Shown piece by piece: positions 18,831 to 25,767 of a stretch of DNA of 64,000 bases. The stretch lies in contig NC_052405.1 of assembly GCF_009389715.1 (NCBI RefSeq), positions 10,990,694-11,054,693 of the forward strand, in the 5' to 3' direction. This stretch comes from Phoenix dactylifera. Its lineage: Eukaryota; Streptophyta; Magnoliopsida; Arecales; Arecaceae. The translations under genes and the position numbers were made by a program. Below the pieces are notes generated by a model, which was given only the letters and a program-made list of their open reading frames with translations, was not told the DNA's origin and made no database searches. Numbering within the stretch: position 1 is the stretch's first letter; each line of letters opens with the position of its first letter.

Positions 18831-18946
18831 CAGTCAGATCGGACGGCTCTGGTTCCTTCGCGGAGACCGACGGTCCAGATCATTCGCATAACGGTTGGGG
18901 GTGTTTTAGTAATTTAGTATCTCATCTTATTGAGATGCCCCCCGTC

Positions 18947-19090
18947 AGGGGGTAGTTCTAAATACACCCCCCCGATTGCTCAGGACACCCCCCAAAAATT
19001 AAAAAAAAATTAAATACTCTCTACACCCCCCCATTTGCTAAGGACACCCCTAAAAAATTTAAAAATCCTAAATTACCCTTCACCCTCCCC
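18947..19090 (+). repeat. MULE left terminal modules (duplicated)
   Basis: Two related modules in tandem, at about 18964 and 19023, each reading ACACCCCCCC, ATTTGCT-like, AGGACACCCC and then A/T-rich sequence. They resemble the inverted right-end modules, whose reverse complement also reads TCAGCACACCCCCC and TCAGTACACCCCCC. Confidence 0.6.
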
Positions 19091-19105: not shown

Positions 19106-19420
19106 TTGCTCTCTACACCCCCCAAACCCCCCCCCAAAACCCCGCTCTTCCCCTCCAAAACTCCACTCCAGCCGGCTTCTCCCTTCCGCCCAAAAAACTT
19201 CGCCTCAAGCACCTCAAGCACCTCGCCGGCGGCCAAACCCCCTCCGTCTCCCCCTTCTCCCTCGCCCAAAACCCCCCCGTTCCCCCTTCTCCCTCTCGTC
19301 GCCGGCATTCTCCCCTTCTCCCTCTCGTCGCCGGCATTCTCCCGGAACCACCTCCCCGGCCATCTCCCGAGCAACGAGCACCTCGCCGGCGCCTCCACGA
19401 CCACGTCGAGGTAGCTCCCC
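19106..19420 (+). other. GC-rich C-run segment of the MULE left arm
   Basis: A C- and CTC-rich stretch with two adjacent copies of TTCTCCCTCTCGTCGCCGGC (about 19278-19340). It is open in several frames, encoding only Pro/Ser/Arg low-complexity sequence. It ends with a possible donor (GTCGAG|GTAGCT at 19410) that could pair with the acceptor before the PMD ATG, so it may be the 5' UTR of the PMD gene. Not called coding. Confidence 0.45.
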
Positions 19421-19442
19421 GCCCCCCCGCCTCCAGTGCTCC

Positions 19443-19712
19443 GTTCGGCACTGGATCGCCGAACAGAACCCTTCTGTTCGGCTGAACAGTGCCGAACAGA
19501 AGCCCTCTGTTCGGCAACACTCAACCGAACAGAAGCCTTCTGTTCGGCTGCACGGTGCCGAACAGAAGCCTTCTGTTCGGCTGCACAGTGCCGAACAGAA
19601 TGGTTCTGTCCGGCTCTGTGCAGCCGAACAGAAGCCTTCTGTTCGGCTCTGTGCAGCCGAACAGAAGCCTTCTGTTCGGCACTGTGCAGCCGAACAGAAG
19701 GCTTCTGGTGCC
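19443..19712 (+). repeat. Left array of 25-bp palindromes, 33-bp period, about 8 units
   Basis: Units start at 19458 and every 33 bp to 19689. Each is an inverted repeat of GCCGAACAGAAG and CTTCTGTTCGGC around a one-base centre, separated by 8-bp spacers such as TGCACAGT or TCTGTGCA. The array sits just upstream of the PMD gene and is mirrored at the other end of the element. Because 33 is a multiple of three, every frame stays open, which produces false repetitive open frames. Confidence 0.95.
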
Positions 19713-19811
19713 AAATCGCGTGCCGTGCTGAATTTTGTGCCGAACATTTATGTATGCAATTGAATTATTTTCTTTGATATAGCCTAACATTGAATTTCTA
19801 TATTTTCAGAC

Positions 19812-21726
19812 ATGGATCCCCGTCCCGCCAGAGTTAGACCTACGGCGTCAGCTAGGAGACGTCGTGCTAGGATTGCTTCTCCCGAGCCTGCTCATATGCC
19901 ATCGGACTCTCCTGAGTCAGAGCATGATGATATGCCCGCTAGGGGCGAAGACGATGAGTCCGTTGGACCATGTCCAGGAGGTCCAGAGGATGAGTCCGTC
20001 CTGATCAGTTTCAGGACGCATATAGCAGCTTCCATCTGGAGGCAACAGGTATTGTTTATTTGTTATAGCATTATATTTTGTTTATTGATGTTTTATAAAG
20101 TAGTAGTAATTATACATTTATATTACAGGAACGAGCTCCACTAAAGTGCATGAACCATACTGCCAAGGTTGGTGAATGGAAGTGGTGGTCTTCAAACCAA
20201 CCAAATACCAGGTTCAGAGCACTATTGAGGCAGTCGGGCCTCGTAGAGTTAGTACAGTGCTCTTATCGATTCATCGATAAGATTCTGATTTCGGGCTTCG
20301 TAGAGAGATGGCAGCCCGAGACGAACACCTTCCATATACCATTTGGCGAGATCACTATCACGTTGGATGATGTATCCGCCATTTTAGGGATTCCTGTCGC
20401 AGGTTCCTCAGTATCAGTTTCTCCTGAGAGGATGAGTGATCGGGATGCTGAGGAGCTACTTGTGGAGTTGTTGGGGGTGTCAGCTGGAGACGCGCGTCAG
20501 GAGGTACTGTCATCGCGCGGTCAGTCTGTGAGGATGGAGTGGCTGAGGACTCAGTTTCACTCTGTATCTGATAGAGACAGGCAGCAGAGGATAGAGTGTG
20601 CAGCACGAGCCTATTTGTTATTTTTGTTAGGCTGCACACTCTTTGCTGATAAGAGTGGGACCAGGGTGCCTATAGCGTATCTGTGTTTACTGCGGGATCT
20701 GGATAGGGTGAGCACATATGCCTGGGGTACAGCTGCCTTAGCATATTTGTATCGGCAGTTGGGGATTGCGTCGAGGTCATCAGTGAGACAGATCAGTGGT
20801 TATATGACGCTTCTGCAGGCATGGATTTATGAGCATTTTCCAGCACTCAGTCCTCACCCGTCGCTCGAGTATACTGATGCCAGTCCCCGCGTGCACCGCT
20901 GGATGCCCGGTACTCCATCCCGTACCACGATGGACCATTTAGTGGTTCTACGTGAGTCATTGGACCTTTTGAGCATCGATGAGGTACGTATCATATTACC
21001 ATTTGCTTGTGTTTGTCAGTACTTTTAATATGCGATATAGTATTAAACTGAAATGGACCTTTTGTTTTACAGGTTATTTGGGATCCCCATCATCGGCTTC
21101 GGGGAGATCGCCCATATATACCCGTCGCATTTTTTAGTGGCTCCATCAAGTGCCTTGATATCGTAGAACCCTATCATCCAGAAAGGGTTCTTAGACAGTT
21201 TGGTCGTATTCAGACCATCCCTCGAGCGCCACTAGCCCCTACGCGAGCCAACAGAGGTTCCACAGCAGGCTCGTACCGGATACATTACTCCTATATGGAT
21301 CAGCTTTGGGAGCGGTGGGAGGACCACGTGCTGAGCCAGGCGAGCAGGAGCCACCCAGTTACCCGGCCATCAGACAGCGTACCGGGATACATGGAGTGGT
21401 ATCTCCGTATCACGCACGTTGCAGTTCAGCCTCCTCATCTGCGCTCGAGTACTCATTCTGGAGCTAGGGGAGGTCATGATGATGCTGACATGCACCGGCG
21501 GCGTAATGCAGCTGCACTCGGTATCAGTACCGACATTGTACGGATGGGTCCCTCAGAGGCTACGTCACTAGGTGCCGGGCACCTATATGATGCTATTTCT
21601 CAGATGCATCAGGTACTTCTGGGTGATGAGCCTGGCCCGAGTACAGCACCCTCTCATTCGGATCCAGGACCCTCTCATTCGGACGTACAGCAGTACACGC
21701 GTCGACGATGGCGTCATAGGGATTGA
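19812..21726 (+). CDS. Plant mobile domain (PMD) protein, MAIN-like, encoded by the MULE
   Basis: Exons 19812-20048, 20129-20983 and 21073-21726 join in phase (GT-AG throughout) to 581 residues with no internal stop. After an Arg/Asp-rich N-terminus the PMD core is clear: GLVELVQCSYRFIDKILISG, FVERWQPETNTFHIPFGEIT, TLDDVSAILGIPVAG, ARAYLLFLLGCTLFADKSG, YAWGTAALAYLYRQLG and GYMTLLQAWIYEHFP, followed by HHRLRGDRP and a C-terminal RRRWRHRD. The domain is known from Arabidopsis MAIN/MAIL1, from PP7-like long forms, and from transposons. Its role in elements is unknown; effects on silencing are a reasonable inference from MAIN family mutants. The ATG lies 2 nt after a TATTTTCAG acceptor, implying an upstream untranslated exon. 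No phosphatase domain is present. The neighbour is the convergent transposase. Confidence 0.9.
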
Positions 21727-21979
21727 TGATGGAGCCTTTGTAATCTTTGTAAAGCCTTTGATATTAATGAAAAATATATATTTTTGGTACATTTACGTGT
21801 AATCTTTGTAAAGCCTGGCCCGTTCTATTTTACACAAATATAACAGTGCACATAACAATCAATCTAACAATGCGAAGACAGATATTTTTTGATTTATATT
21901 GATGATGGAGTTTCACAGTACATGACTCTAAGAGGCCAAAAAAATTTACAACTTTCAAAAATTGTACATATATAAATAA
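21727..21979. other. Spacer between convergent MULE genes
   Basis: 253 bp with TTAATGAAAAATATATA after the PMD stop (possible polyadenylation context) and a duplicated GTAATCTTTGTAAAGCCT word at about 21740 and 21799. No gene. Confidence 0.6.
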
Positions 21980-24900
21980 TCAATCTAACTCTACTGTCTC
22001 GCTAATTATAACATTAGGTGAGATGCTCTCTTTGAACTGTTGAATCCGTGCTTCATATGAATTTTCCCATCCGGTAGCACAAGGAAGATGATATTTTCGC
22101 CAGTTGGTCGCTACTGGCGGAACGGGATGTCCCGGCAACAAGAACACCTTCAAAATTAGAAATAAGAAAATATTAATAGCTACAAAATTATAAATAAGCA
22201 AAATTAAATAAGCAAAATTAAATATTCGCAAGTGTTGTGAACGTAGTACCTCAACAAAATGATTTCCATTTACGAATCCGATAGCGATATCTTTGCGGGA
22301 TAGAAGAGGTACTGGCACAGAACGGAGAGGTAGGAAGGTCAGACATTGTTGCAACGAGAGATGGTATAGGACAACATTATAGCAGGATGCTATAAGATGA
22401 CCCATGTCCGGCATAGTCATCCATCTGTCATATGGTGGACAATCATCATAATATGATAATGCATGAGTGATCTCAGCAATCGTCCCTTCCACACCATATA
22501 ATGTGCGATAGTGGTCCGAATGACATTGCAACTCTTGCAATAAATCCTTCCTAACACGCACCCAGTCATCTTCTCCAAATCCCAGTAAGTCAGCTATTGC
22601 CCTAGTACGAAAAACCTGCAAATAATATCAAATGATAGAAAATATGTAACAATGGCAGAACATGTCCCGTATCGGCACATCTCGGCACGGCACGTACCGA
22701 CATATCCCGTATCGGCACATCTCGGCACGGCACATCCCGTATCGGCACATCTCGGCACGGCACGTCCCGACATGTCCCGTATCGGCACATCTCGGCACGG
22801 CACGTCCCGACATGTCCCGTATCGGCACATGACATACCGGCACGGCACAGACCGTCCCGTAGACGTTGTGATACCTATTGTAAGGAAATAAATATTTGGT
22901 ACTTACCTTTTGCTTGGGCCGTCTCTTTTGAATCTGAGTAGATGGATTGCGGATGGTAACTTTCTCAACACCAGGTGAATAACTATCCTGTCCAGATAGA
23001 ACCAACTCAAACGCAGACGGGTCACGTCGAGTAGACGTATCAACCTTCAGTGAAGCGCGCCCACGTGAACCGGTCTTCCGTTTTGCAGGCTCTAAAAGAG
23101 GTGTACTATCTGGACTTGCAATCTCTCGTAACTTCTTGATCATCTGCAATTGAGAAGCCCCATCTAACTTCTTGAATCGTAGCGCAATCAAATCTAACTC
23201 TGCATCACAACTCAACTGAATTGGCTGCACGGGGGGGGGGGGGGGGGGTAGGCAGAATATCAAGTTTCCTCCAATGAGGATCTATGCAGTCGAGAGGAAT
23301 GGGCCGACCTTCCACCCTGTACCGCGCAATCTGGTGAGCACATGGTATACCATGTGTGCGTCGAATAGCGCACCCACAATTTGAATCATCAAATCCAACT
23401 GAATTGGCTCGTTTCGATTGGGCGAGGACATGATTTAACGCACTTATAGATATGAAACCTCGCAACTCTTTGAATTCAGCTGGCTTGAAGTTGTGCTGCA
23501 CTACCAATAAACTCTTCTCCAATGAGGCTTTAACGGAGCTGTGCTGCAACTCAATCAATCCATGTATTCTAGTCCAAGATGACTCGAAACTTCCTTGGCT
23601 TGATCCAAGCTGCTTTTTGAGCTTTGCATGTGCACTCTCGACCCTAGTAAACAAATGAAAGTTAGATATAAGAATTGAGGCAAATTAAAATTAAATGAGT
23701 CTTTATTTGTGATACCTATTTGTCGTCACATTTCCGTAGTGCCTGCATGTATCAGTCCACGCCGCAACAAATCTTTCCTTGTATTTGCTCAGCCAAGTAT
23801 CTGACACATACTGTAGTGCATCTGGATAGGTACCGAACTCTCTCTGCAGTGCACTCCAGCGATCATTATACTCGTCTTCCATGGAGGACAGCACTAGTAC
23901 ATTCCAACTCATAATAAATTTATCCCATTTCTCCTTCAATTCGAAAAATTTTTTGCACTTGGCCAAAACATTCCTACTAATATGCCATCTACATAATAAA
24001 TGTCTAGCAGTAGGAAATACTCTATGAATTGCATTCATCAAAGCCAAGTCTCTATCTGTAACAATCAACTCAGGCAAAACATCATCAGCTATGACACTGC
24101 GCAATCTCTCTAATGCCCAAGTATAGCTTTCTTCCCCCTCAGAATTTAAGTATACAAAAGCAACTGAAAATGTCATGTCAGTAGATGTCACCCCCACAAT
24201 CTCTAAGAGCAGAAGACGATACCTATTCGTCTTGTACGTGCAATCCATTATCAACACACGGGGAAATGCACGGAACAAATCAATGCTGCCAGGGTGTGCC
24301 CAAAATAAGTCATGCACAACATCCGTATTAGTACAATTCCTATGCCACTCAATATATTTAGCCTCTGATAATTTACCTAATAGATGTTGCATTTCAGACC
24401 TCCCGGCTTTCTCTGCAACCTTAAACCGTTGACGTACATTGTAGATAGTCTTGATAGTCGTAACATTGAGGGCATCTCTTTCCTTCAATGTGGATAATAT
24501 GTCCTTTGGACGAACCAAACTCTTCGACATATCCACTAACAATTCCGTCTCCTGCTCAGATAATCTCCCTGCATATGAGTGCCCCTCCAGATTCTCTGCA
24601 GCGGGATGATTGTGCACTCCACATACGACCAGTAATATCCAATCATCCGCAGTATCCAATTTCTTTCCTCTTAATGCAAAAGGGCATCCACACTTCTTTG
24701 TCCCACAGGCAGTCTTTATTCGCTTTTCTTTTGTGGTTCGGTACGTCCCACCCCTCTCACAACCTAACGTAATTCTGGGTTTCTTAGAAATGGTACCTGC
24801 ATCGGATGATTTGATTACAACAACAAAACCATTTCGCCTCCCAGCTTCACGACACCAATTACACAAGTCCTCTCTACTCTTGAAGATCTATACATTAAAC

Positions 24901-25432
24901 AATTTATGTAAGTACACAGTTGTAAAAATAGCTCGCTAAACTAATACAAAATTGCACAATATATTATAATACCTCGTAAGTTGTAAATTCGCTTGTGTAA
25001 TCCAGTACAAATTCTGATCCAATTATACTCGATTCGGTTGTAGCATAGCCCTACATATAAAATAATTTATCACCAAGAATTAATGAATCAGAGGAACTGT
25101 TCGGCACAAAATTCAGCACGGCACGCGATTTGGCACGAGAAGGCTTCTGTTCGGCTGCAGAGTGCCGAACAGAAGCCTTCTGTTCGGCTTCAGTGTGCCG
25201 GACAGAAGCCTTATGTTCGGCACTGTGCAGCCGAACAGAAGCCTTCTGTTCGGTAGAGCGTTGCCGAACAGAAGGCTTCTGTTCGGCACTATGCAGCCGA
25301 ACAGAAGCCTTTTGTTCGGCGATCCAGTGCCGAACGGAGCACGAACCGTGAAAAAAAAAAACTTTCGAAACAAGGTGGAACACGTACCTTTGCGGCCGAT
25401 TCTTCGTCCCAAATCACTAGTTGCTTGTCCAT
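21980..25432 (-). CDS. MULE transposase with FAR1, MULE, SWIM and OTU-like regions; frameshifted in a poly-C tract
   Basis: Exons on minus: 25388-25432 (MDKQLVIWDEESAAK), 24973-25050, 23716-24887, 22907-23643, 22250-22615 and 21980-22147, all GT-AG and phase-compatible. In order: a FAR1/WRKY-GCM1 type zinc finger (CGTKKCGCPF to CGVHNHPAAE); a MULE transposase core (RVLIMDCTYKTNRYRLLLLE, ELIVTDRDLALMNAI, LLCRWHISRNV) with the two Asp positions; a SWIM finger (CGCAIRRTHGIPCAH); and an OTU-like C-terminus (AIADLLGFGEDDWVRVRKDL, WMTMPDMGHLIASCYNVVL, TFLPLRSVPVP, GFVNGNHFVE, PVPPVATNWRKYHLP). An 18-nt C run (23231-23248) puts the fourth exon out of frame; the frame after it resumes the family sequence (QPIQLSCDAELDLIALRFKK), so it is one base too long or two too short. 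The OTU DGxC motif that normally precedes RAIA is not seen. Confidence 0.88.
22666..22860. repeat. Tandem repeat (40/30 bp units) in transposase intron
   Basis: Units starting CCCGTATCGGCACATCTCGG begin at 22666, 22706, 22736, 22776 and 22816, four of 40 bp (the last diverged) and one of 30 bp. The array lies in the intron immediately before the OTU-like exon, where sequence for the OTU catalytic loop would be expected. Confidence 0.92.
23231..23248. repeat. 18-nt G/C homopolymer in the transposase gene
   Basis: A pure G run on plus, reading as C (proline codons) in the transposase. The reading frame changes across it. Such runs are prone both to replication slippage and to sequencing error. 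Confidence 0.95.
25051..25387 (-). other. Transposase intron 1 containing the right palindrome array
   Basis: Donor AAG|GTACGTG, acceptor TATGTAG|GGCTATG. Nearly the whole intron is the inverted palindrome array plus its conserved flank, a mirror of the arrangement upstream of the PMD gene. Confidence 0.8.
25140..25337 (-). repeat. Right array of 25-bp palindromes, five full units plus a partial
   Basis: Same GCCGAACAGAAG / CTTCTGTTCGGC palindromes as the left array, with the flank GCACGGCACGCGATTTGGCA on the inner side and CGATCCAGTGCCGAACGG on the outer side, exactly reversed relative to the left end. It has fewer units than the left array. Confidence 0.95.
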
Positions 25433-25559: not shown

Positions 25560-25694
25560 GGAGGAGGAAGGGGGGTGTACTGAGAAAATTTCAAGGGCAA
25601 TATGGTAATTACACTAAAGGTTAGTTTGGGTATTTTCTTTTTGGTTTTTGGGGGGTGTGCTGAACACTAAAGGTTAGTTTGGGTATTTTTTGGG
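25560..25694 (-). repeat. MULE right terminal modules (duplicated)
   Basis: GGGGGTGTACTGA (25571) and GGGGGTGTGCTGA (25650) are each followed by ACACTAAAGGTTAGTTTGGG (25611) or AACACTAAAGGTTAGTTTGG (25664), so the end module is present twice. Reverse-complemented, it resembles the left end. Confidence 0.65.
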
Positions 25695-25767
25695 GGGTTA
25701 CAGTAAACTGTAATGCTGCGGAGCTCCTCATAGAATTTCTGTACGGGATATGCTATCTATCTTCAAT
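25695..25767 (-). repeat. Displaced upstream end of the RPL5 promoter duplication
   Basis: Homologous to 10978-11062 of the other copy (CTGCGGAGCTCCTCATAGAA and following). It places the right boundary of the MULE. Confidence 0.85.

Follow-up and report, generated by a model that had tools for sequence, protein, structure and literature searches.

A MULE in the window (by which we mean the whole 64,000-nucleotide stretch of DNA analyzed here) carries two mirror-image arrays of palindromes, and what is conserved in them, in the copies that we compared, is not the palindrome as such: it is a half-site, GCCGAAC (or GCCGACC), repeated with its orientation alternating and with 8 or 11 bp between neighbors. 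What might such an arrangement be for? We propose, with moderate confidence, that the arrays serve as a docking platform on the DNA for a sequence-specific protein that binds as a dimer and would act on both genes of the element in a VANC-like manner.

The Element and Its Two Arrays

The element is a MULE with two convergent genes, one for a PMD protein (Pfam PF10536, E = 9.6e-74) and one for a MULE/FAR1 transposase (PF10551, E = 3.6e-26; FAR1, E = 3.2e-6); its features are collected in Table 1. At the left boundary, alignments of the relatives' copies stop at 18946-18953, the flanks beyond diverge, and in other copies the terminal repeat recurs, inverted, on the right. Wherever another copy has its right end aligned (14 cases), the beginning of the right terminal repeat (TGAGCAAT...G-run) is present; the 35 bp displayed for L011 and L024 finish in the G-run, and the rest of the repeat is seen in L011. 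The window copy is without it. With this right end altered, target duplications were assessed in relatives: duplications of the MULE kind (8-11 bp, mostly 9) are found in 18 of 20 short relatives and in L014.

Table 1. Positions of the element's features in the window
Feature	Positions	Strand	Remarks
Left terminal inverted repeat, element start	18950..18998	+	GGGTAGTTCTAAATACACC...ACACCCCCC
Predicted 5'-UTR intron of PMD gene, with left array	19411..19809	+	Splice-site letters in copies
Outer flank, left cassette	19437..19457	+	One half-site, GTTCGGC, at 19443; mirrors right cassette
Left array	19458..19713	+	Seven full palindromes and half unit 19689-19713
Inner flank, left cassette	19708..19746	+	39 bp, same as in right cassette
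PMD gene	19812..21726	+	Exons 19812-20048, 20129-20983, 21073-21726; 581 aa, intact frame
Third array	22660..22861	-	Units of ~40 bp, TCGGCAC at 10/20/30-bp steps, in predicted transposase intron
Transposase exon 3	23706..24887	-	FAR1 and MULE domains
Transposase exon 2, predicted	24973..25050	-	
Transposase intron 1, predicted, with right array	25051..25387	-	Splice-site letters in copies
Inner flank, right cassette	25098..25136	-	Identical to left inner flank
Right array	25131..25320	-	Half unit 25131-25155 and five full palindromes
Outer flank, right cassette	25321..25342	-	Half-site at 25329; mirror match of left cassette
Transposase exon 1, predicted	25388..25432	-	MDKQLVIWDEESAAK
Right subterminal region	25560..25668	-	Terminal repeat of other copies absent beyond it in window copy

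The original prediction, that 25-bp palindromes recur at 33-bp steps toward both sides of the element, is borne out: with up to three mismatches allowed, the window holds 12 matches against 0.00 expected in shuffles. The counts needed refinement. Where about eight palindromes had been seen on the left, there are seven and a half unit, with starts at 19458, 19491, and so on to 19656 in exact 33-bp steps; where five to six had been seen in inverted orientation on the right, the mirror-image array has five (25164, 25197, 25230, 25263, and 25296) and a half unit. The conserved stretch said to adjoin both arrays does so, its 39 bp being identical in the two cassettes, and 35 bp of it (again with up to three mismatches) is found at just these two sites in the window, on opposite strands. 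Of the 27 copies of the half-site GCCGAAC counted on both strands of the window, 26 lie within the two cassettes.

The arrays had been placed near the element's ends; they are not at the very ends but ~490 bp in from the left and ~330 bp in from the right, within what we predict to be the first introns of the two genes. The prediction leans on splice-site letters that were left free in the comparison. For the left intron, GTAGCT follows the exon text at 43 of 43 places, and TCAG precedes the next exon at 50 of 50; for the right, GTACGT stands at 38 of 38 places and TAG at 28 of 28, and transposase exon 1 with its donor recurs at 38 matched places in 36 sequences.

The arrays are open in several reading frames. 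Coding repeats of 11 amino acids are ruled out by the varying length of the poly-T before the right array (10, 11, or 12) and by the frame offset from exon 1 to the array, which is 0, 1, or 2 (mod 3) in 13, 18, and 5 cases; we take the arrays to be noncoding because this frame is not maintained. As for the third array, its match to the inner flank (CGTGCCGTGCYGA..TGTGCCGA) scores 25, against a best of 23 among 943 outside windows; shuffling the motif reached it in 13 of 2000 trials and shuffling the unit in 4 of 2000, and the likeness is no more than suggestive.

A Spacing Rule That Outlasts Its Filler

In the host genome (773 Mb), exact matches number 1200 for the element ends and 1245 for the palindrome (0 for a reversed control). 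In relatives, the arrays are neither absent nor randomly spaced: the left array is present in 22 of 22 elements and the right in all 19 whose right array falls in the retrieved stretch, although arrays are missing from two of a set of 20 short elements. Steps among the 22 are 33 bp, with five exceptions (55, 30, 38, 50, and 61 bp); the number of units differs between copies by whole units, and the inner flank is unmatched at the left in six (L019-L024). Every array that we read came from a sequence retrieved via the left-end region, the PMD, the transposase, or the element ends, and a genomic satellite is rejected for these arrays, though not for all 1245 palindromes.

Among 72 related sequences, when exact half-sites no more than 30 bp apart are paired, 392 of 394 outward neighbors have a gap of 8 (with 17 different fillers; 19 of the 392 come from the variant lineage described below), and 304 of 305 inward neighbors have a gap of 11 (18 fillers), all counted among close kin (full-length copies are 96-100% identical over 701 bp) and therefore not independent. 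Genome-wide, GTTCGGC..GCCGAAC pairs with gaps of 0-30 number 3316, against 20 for the control; among the 50 pairs listed, the gap is 8 in 49 and 7 in 1. Within the window units, 10 of 288 arm positions depart from the consensus, compared with 19 of 96 spacer positions (p = 2e-6), an approximately six-fold lower divergence of the arms. With a helical repeat of 10.5 bp, each 33-bp unit makes 3.14 turns, a drift of ~51 degrees per unit, and the idea that every palindrome presents the same face of the helix fails on this count.

Some relatives have exchanged the filler altogether. Among 21 left introns taken from chosen relatives, seven have CCCATGGG in place of TGCACAGT and CGCTGCAATTG in place of AGAAGCCTTCT; the symmetry axis is shifted, yet within the body of the array the order 7-8-7-11 persists. 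We saw two filler lineages only. The variant unit shares 12 of 14 half-site positions with the canonical one, compared with 7 of 19 filler positions (p = 0.011). In a chance test devised after the pattern was noticed, the fit of its consensus to GTTCGGC-8-GCCGAAC was equalled in 8 of 20,000 shuffles and 57 of 20,000 random GC-rich palindromes. The ends of the variant arrays break the rule: the outermost pair consists of GTTCGGC-type sites, both alike, at a distance of 26 bp (seven of seven), the last pair has a gap of 23 bp (six of seven), and L049 and L050 each have one unit with a lost half-site. The right stretches assigned by position to two variant-filler copies, L030 and L057, are canonical. 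Filler, unit number, and symmetry axis vary, then, while half-sites and gap lengths stay constant, and it is because these outlast the filler that we regard a platform for a dimeric protein as best supported.

Twenty short, nonautonomous elements, chosen by their ends alone, speak to transposition. Three to five palindromes are kept in 18, and in 16 of these, one inward gap is 6 rather than 11. The other two, L070 and L083, have no half-site, yet they have perfect target duplications of 11 and 9 bp, and because of this we conclude that the arrays are not strictly required in cis for jumping; they may still help. A landing platform had been foreseen for the arrays, and its multisite, dimeric character remains the best-supported reading, whereas any strict need of it for transposition is contradicted.

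What the Arrays May Do

We picture dimers binding along the array and acting, in a VANC-like way, on the transcription or chromatin of both genes, an action that would extend to nonautonomous relatives. Our first guess for the binder is the element's own PMD protein, followed by the transposase through its FAR1 domain and then by a host factor. There is a precedent: VANC21 binds motif arrays in the introns of VANC21 and VANB21 and upstream of VANA21 (PMC5735166). The PMD is only weakly similar to the VANC domain DUF1985 (E = 0.0014 and 0.0038, neither passing the cut-off), and a search of the host genome for DUF1985 gave 20 matches, none above the cut-off, with 150 of 220 candidates scored. 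A bolder version is one that we hold tentatively and think rather doubtful: that MULE-borne PMD proteins are sequence-specific anti-silencing or activator proteins binding alternating, 8/11-spaced GCCGAAC half-sites in introns of the element itself. They would form a counterpart of VANC-VANDAL that arose separately with another protein family, in which filler turns over freely while the spacing is maintained, and the third array would be a further target.

Positive selection specific to the PMD was considered and rejected, the transposase exon showing similar ratios (8:2, 8:2, 9:1, 7:1, 6:2, 6:1, 8:1, and 7:1 against the window). For the PMD, pN/pS exceeds 1 between subfamilies (23:4 for the window and L060; three contrasts picked post hoc sum to 39:4, binomial p = 0.013) and is below 1 for L018, L025, L028, L024, L020, and L064 (L067 left out). 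A PMD core structure predicted from one sequence (mean pLDDT 39.5) was not used.

Other readings deserve a hearing. In Spm/En and Ac, which belong to other superfamilies, numerous short motifs bound by proteins lie near both ends and serve transposition, and the arrays could likewise be subterminal transposase-binding sites that raise it, as perhaps in Muta1. Their mirror placement toward both ends and the palindromes retained in short elements fit this, as do the subterminal tandem repeats described for Muta1 (PMC5225508). We nevertheless find it unlikely: the arrays are intronic and hundreds of base pairs from the ends, array-less L070 and L083 have also inserted, and the 18 array-bearing short elements, 16 of which share the 6-bp gap, may have a common founder. 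Equally, a host factor could be using a homotypic array as its enhancer, and the predicted first-intron position in both genes suits intronic enhancers; the variant half-site, moreover, contains GCCGAC, which we take to be the DRE/CRT core. The canonical half-site GCCGAAC differs from it, and AP2/ERF proteins bind as monomers, a mode of binding that does not account for the fixed 8- and 11-bp gaps; recruitment of a host transcription factor seems to us unlikely, slightly more so than transposase sites.

Two further readings both strike us as quite improbable. Neutral tandem duplication within a foldback-like inverted repeat, with period and half-sites merely inherited, would account for the whole-unit differences between young copies, and tandem or palindromic repeats are known at other MULE ends; against it stand the far lower divergence of the arms and the survival of half-sites and gaps when filler is replaced. 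The least probable, to our minds, is selection on the intron transcripts as RNA hairpins, whether as an siRNA source or as a splicing or retention device. The original prediction had offered a hairpin-RNA source, and the predicted folds are indeed very strong (-230 kcal/mol, z = -21, for the left intron; -170, z = -16.6, for the right; -181 for the L052 variant array, whose 100 mononucleotide shuffles average -92). Any palindrome array folds strongly, however; among 144 pairs in the 12 window units, nine are broken and none compensated, and a constant 8-bp gap, which hairpins do not require between them, goes unexplained. The protein platform remains our preference.

Comparison with Known Systems

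Why do MULEs carry PMD genes at all? An anti-silencing role has been put forward as speculation, with no target named in the portion available (PMC5418596), and a cis-array with a precise spacing rule, occurring in many copies, makes the question directly testable, all the more so as array-bearing and array-less copies within one genome permit a comparison of methylation and arrays are also found on short relatives. Like the PMD-bearing MULEs of the MUDR clade, whose transposase and PMD genes are often antisense and which make 9-bp duplications, the present element has its PMD gene convergent with the transposase gene; intronic arrays are not described for that clade in the parts of the sources at hand (PMC6446971, PMC5418596).

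The original prediction knew of no described MULE with such arrays, which was too strong. In Muta1 (Aedes) and Tm1 (root-knot nematodes), tandem repeats of 12 bp and of 13-15 bp lie near both ends; they are within terminal repeats and shorter, and the excerpts mention no alternating intronic half-sites (PMC5225508, PMC3169594). The Arabidopsis FARE1 foldback MULEs have reported long palindromic repeats at both ends, with no spacing rule or intron location in the description compared (PMC4486113). Among the literature listings and passages covered, none on palindromic or subterminal MULE repeats, or on MULE repeats of 33 bp, described arrays like these; the palindrome half turned up in two papers, both bacterial judging by their titles.

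The closest likeness is to VANDAL21 and VANDAL6, in which arrays of VANC-target motifs occupy introns and other noncoding regions (Hosaka et al. 2017, PMC5735166). There, as here, a MULE has an accessory protein and a short motif in noncoding tandem arrays, the unit number varies between copies, and the motif varies between related families. The VANDAL21 motifs (YAGTATTAY) run in one orientation, whereas the half-sites described here alternate with fixed 8/11-bp gaps; the accessory protein contains DUF1985 in VANDAL and is a PMD protein here, and binding has been demonstrated for VANC, which also removes methylation, whereas the PMD-MULE arrays are known from sequence. They give the anti-silencing arrays found in Arabidopsis VANDAL elements a counterpart that lends itself to testing.

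Spacing Is Held and Filler Is Free

We argue, from sequence, that the constancy of half-sites and gaps around freely changing filler is probably the trace of a dimeric or cooperative DNA-binding protein. Each cassette of the window MULE (table) is composed of an outer flank with one half-site (GCCGAAC or its reverse complement), a palindrome array and an inner flank. On the left, seven full 25-bp palindromes and a half follow one another at exact 33-bp steps, and on the right five and a half do the same; the 39-bp inner flank is identical in both. The cassettes are mirror images, the right one two units shorter. In alignments of the two sides, the sole other likeness lay in the terminal region.

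Features of the window MULE and its genes
Feature	Position	Strand	Remarks
MULE	18950 to about 25668		6.7 kb
PMD gene	19812-21726	+	intact, 581 aa from three coding exons; PF10536 E = 9.6e-74
Transposase gene		-	MULE and FAR1 domains
Third array, TCGGCAC	22660-22861		later transposase intron (predicted); units about 40 bp

In some relatives the filler has been replaced. Among 21 further left-intron stretches from relatives, chosen from PMD matches (non-randomly, the second batch being directed at relatives of the first odd one), 14 were canonical and seven (L029, L045, L049, L050, L052, L053 and L058) carried another array, whose unit is GGTCGGC-CCCATGGG-GCCGACC-CGCTGCAATTG. Half-sites, 8-bp gap, 11-bp gap and 33-bp period are alike in the two kinds of unit, whereas the filler differs: they agree at 12/14 half-site positions and at 7/19 filler positions (p = 0.011). 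The axis of the palindrome has shifted as well: it lies in the 11-bp gap of the canonical unit but in the 8-bp gap of the variant. The variant arrays depart from the rule at their ends, where the outermost two sites point in the same direction, 26 bp apart (7/7), and the last gap is 23 bp (6/7); L049 and L050 have one damaged unit each. Over the outermost 40 bp, 30 positions agree with those of the canonical array. New sequence amounting to several hundred bp also precedes the acceptor in these variant introns. Right-intron stretches of relatives held canonical arrays in nine of ten cases, with two full units only in L054; the tenth (L055) gave unrelated sequence and N.

Exact half-sites in 72 sequences obey the same gaps. 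Outward neighbours within 30 bp were separated by 8 bp in 392/394 pairs with 17 fillers (strands collapsed), the variant kind making up 19 of the 392, and inward neighbours within 30 bp by 11 bp in 304/305 with 18 fillers. Genome-wide, GTTCGGC..GCCGAAC pairs with gaps of 0-30 numbered 3316, against 20 for the reversed control, and among 50 distinct sites listed the gap was 8 in 49 and 7 in one. The variant cores GTTCGGCCCCATGGGGCCGA occurred 48 and 56 times; among 100 listed, 36 same-strand neighbours within 150 bp were counted by eye, 32 of them at 33, 66, 99 or 132 bp and the rest at 51, 54, 55 and 136.

A Young Family in One Genome

The family was surveyed in the one 773-Mb genome that contains the window. 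A query of 701 bp taken at the left end of the window MULE found at least 82 matches (40 of 939 candidates scored). Of these, 40 cover the full query with 96-100% identity, the window being one of them; the transposase exon found at least 105 (105 scored of 422 candidates), open over 394 aa in 101 of the 105. Exact element ends occurred 583 and 617 times and exact palindromes 1245 times, each with a control of 0. All copies are young, with two filler lineages only among them, and because they are young and from one genome, counts across them are not independent.

Within 22 surveyed elements (20 fetched, L008 and the window), the left array was present in 22/22, with 6-8 full units, and the right array in all 19 whose right side fell inside the fetched stretch, with 5-8. 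The inner flank was unmatched at left in six of the 22 (L019-L024). Steps other than 33 bp were 55 (L018), 30 and 38 (L024), 50 (L027) and 61 (short element, L013) and, in canonical left- or right-intron stretches, 32 (L040), 49 (L043), 34 (L048) and 111 (L036).

The window copy itself may, by its sequence, be immobile because it is missing the right terminal repeat (25660-25710), the beginning of which is seen in 14/14 other aligned copies. In the assembly its transposase frame is broken at 23231-23248, where an 18-C run (transposase strand) parts two reading frames. A Pfam search of the C-terminal transposase region (21980-22627, - strand) gave no match; this region may resemble an OTU-like domain. 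The right terminal repeats of L024 and L011 contain very long G runs, and in L014, and likewise at L071 and L072, elements directly abut, with a target duplication in common.

Predicted Introns, Folds and a Third Array

Both cassettes are predicted to lie within first introns, those of the convergent PMD and transposase genes. On the left, a GTAGCT donor lies upstream of the array, and two bases separate a TTTCAG acceptor from the start codon of PMD; on the right the sequence reads ATGGACAAG...GCAAAG, then GTACGT, array, TATGTAG and next exon. With the splice-site letters left free, and a place taken only where adjoining exon text was recognised, the fetched sequences gave GTACGT at 38/38 and GTAGCT at 43/43 exon ends, and TCAG at 50/50 and TAG at 28/28 places before the next exons. 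Predicted RNA folds of both array introns are extreme, as expected because any palindrome array would fold so; across 144 pairs in 12 window units, nine were broken and none compensated.

The third array, present in 16/16 fetched copies with the anchor sequence, partially resembles the cassette inner flank. Its three to nine sites, their number differing among copies, stand at steps of 10, 20 or 30 bp, save for single steps of 15 bp in L015 and 40 bp in L019.

Short Elements without Arrays

For the original prediction, conservation of spacing and palindromy in other copies of the family was the proposed check. The 33-bp steps were kept with the exceptions given above, but the arrays were not universal: in the first twenty end pairs under 1500 bp in the ends listing, taken without regard to arrays, 18 had 3-5 palindromes and two (L070 and L083) had neither palindrome nor half-site. 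Target duplications were found in 18/20, and those of L070 and L083 are perfect (11 and 9 bp), so insertion does not strictly require arrays in cis. G/A-rich repeats occupy the array's place in L070. One inward gap is 6 bp instead of 11 in 16 of the 18 array-bearing short elements, probably a founder deletion.

A Candidate Binder and Known Systems

What, then, might bind? Our proposed binder is the PMD protein or, failing that, the transposase, whose binding to the arrays would keep the element expressed. This proposal is made because the anatomy is VANC-like, because an anti-silencing role has been suggested for MULE-borne PMD proteins (in the portion of PMC5418596 consulted), and because PMD is antisense to transposase in most members of the MUDR group, according to the part consulted of PMC6446971. 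Likeness of PMD to DUF1985, the VANC domain, is under the cut-off. For the VANDAL elements of Arabidopsis, VANC binding and hypomethylation have been demonstrated (PMC5735166 and PMC10398659, sections consulted). Like VANC targets in their anatomy, the cassettes sit in predicted introns of both genes of the window MULE; in VANC targets and in these arrays alike, the number of units changes and the motif varies within one family.
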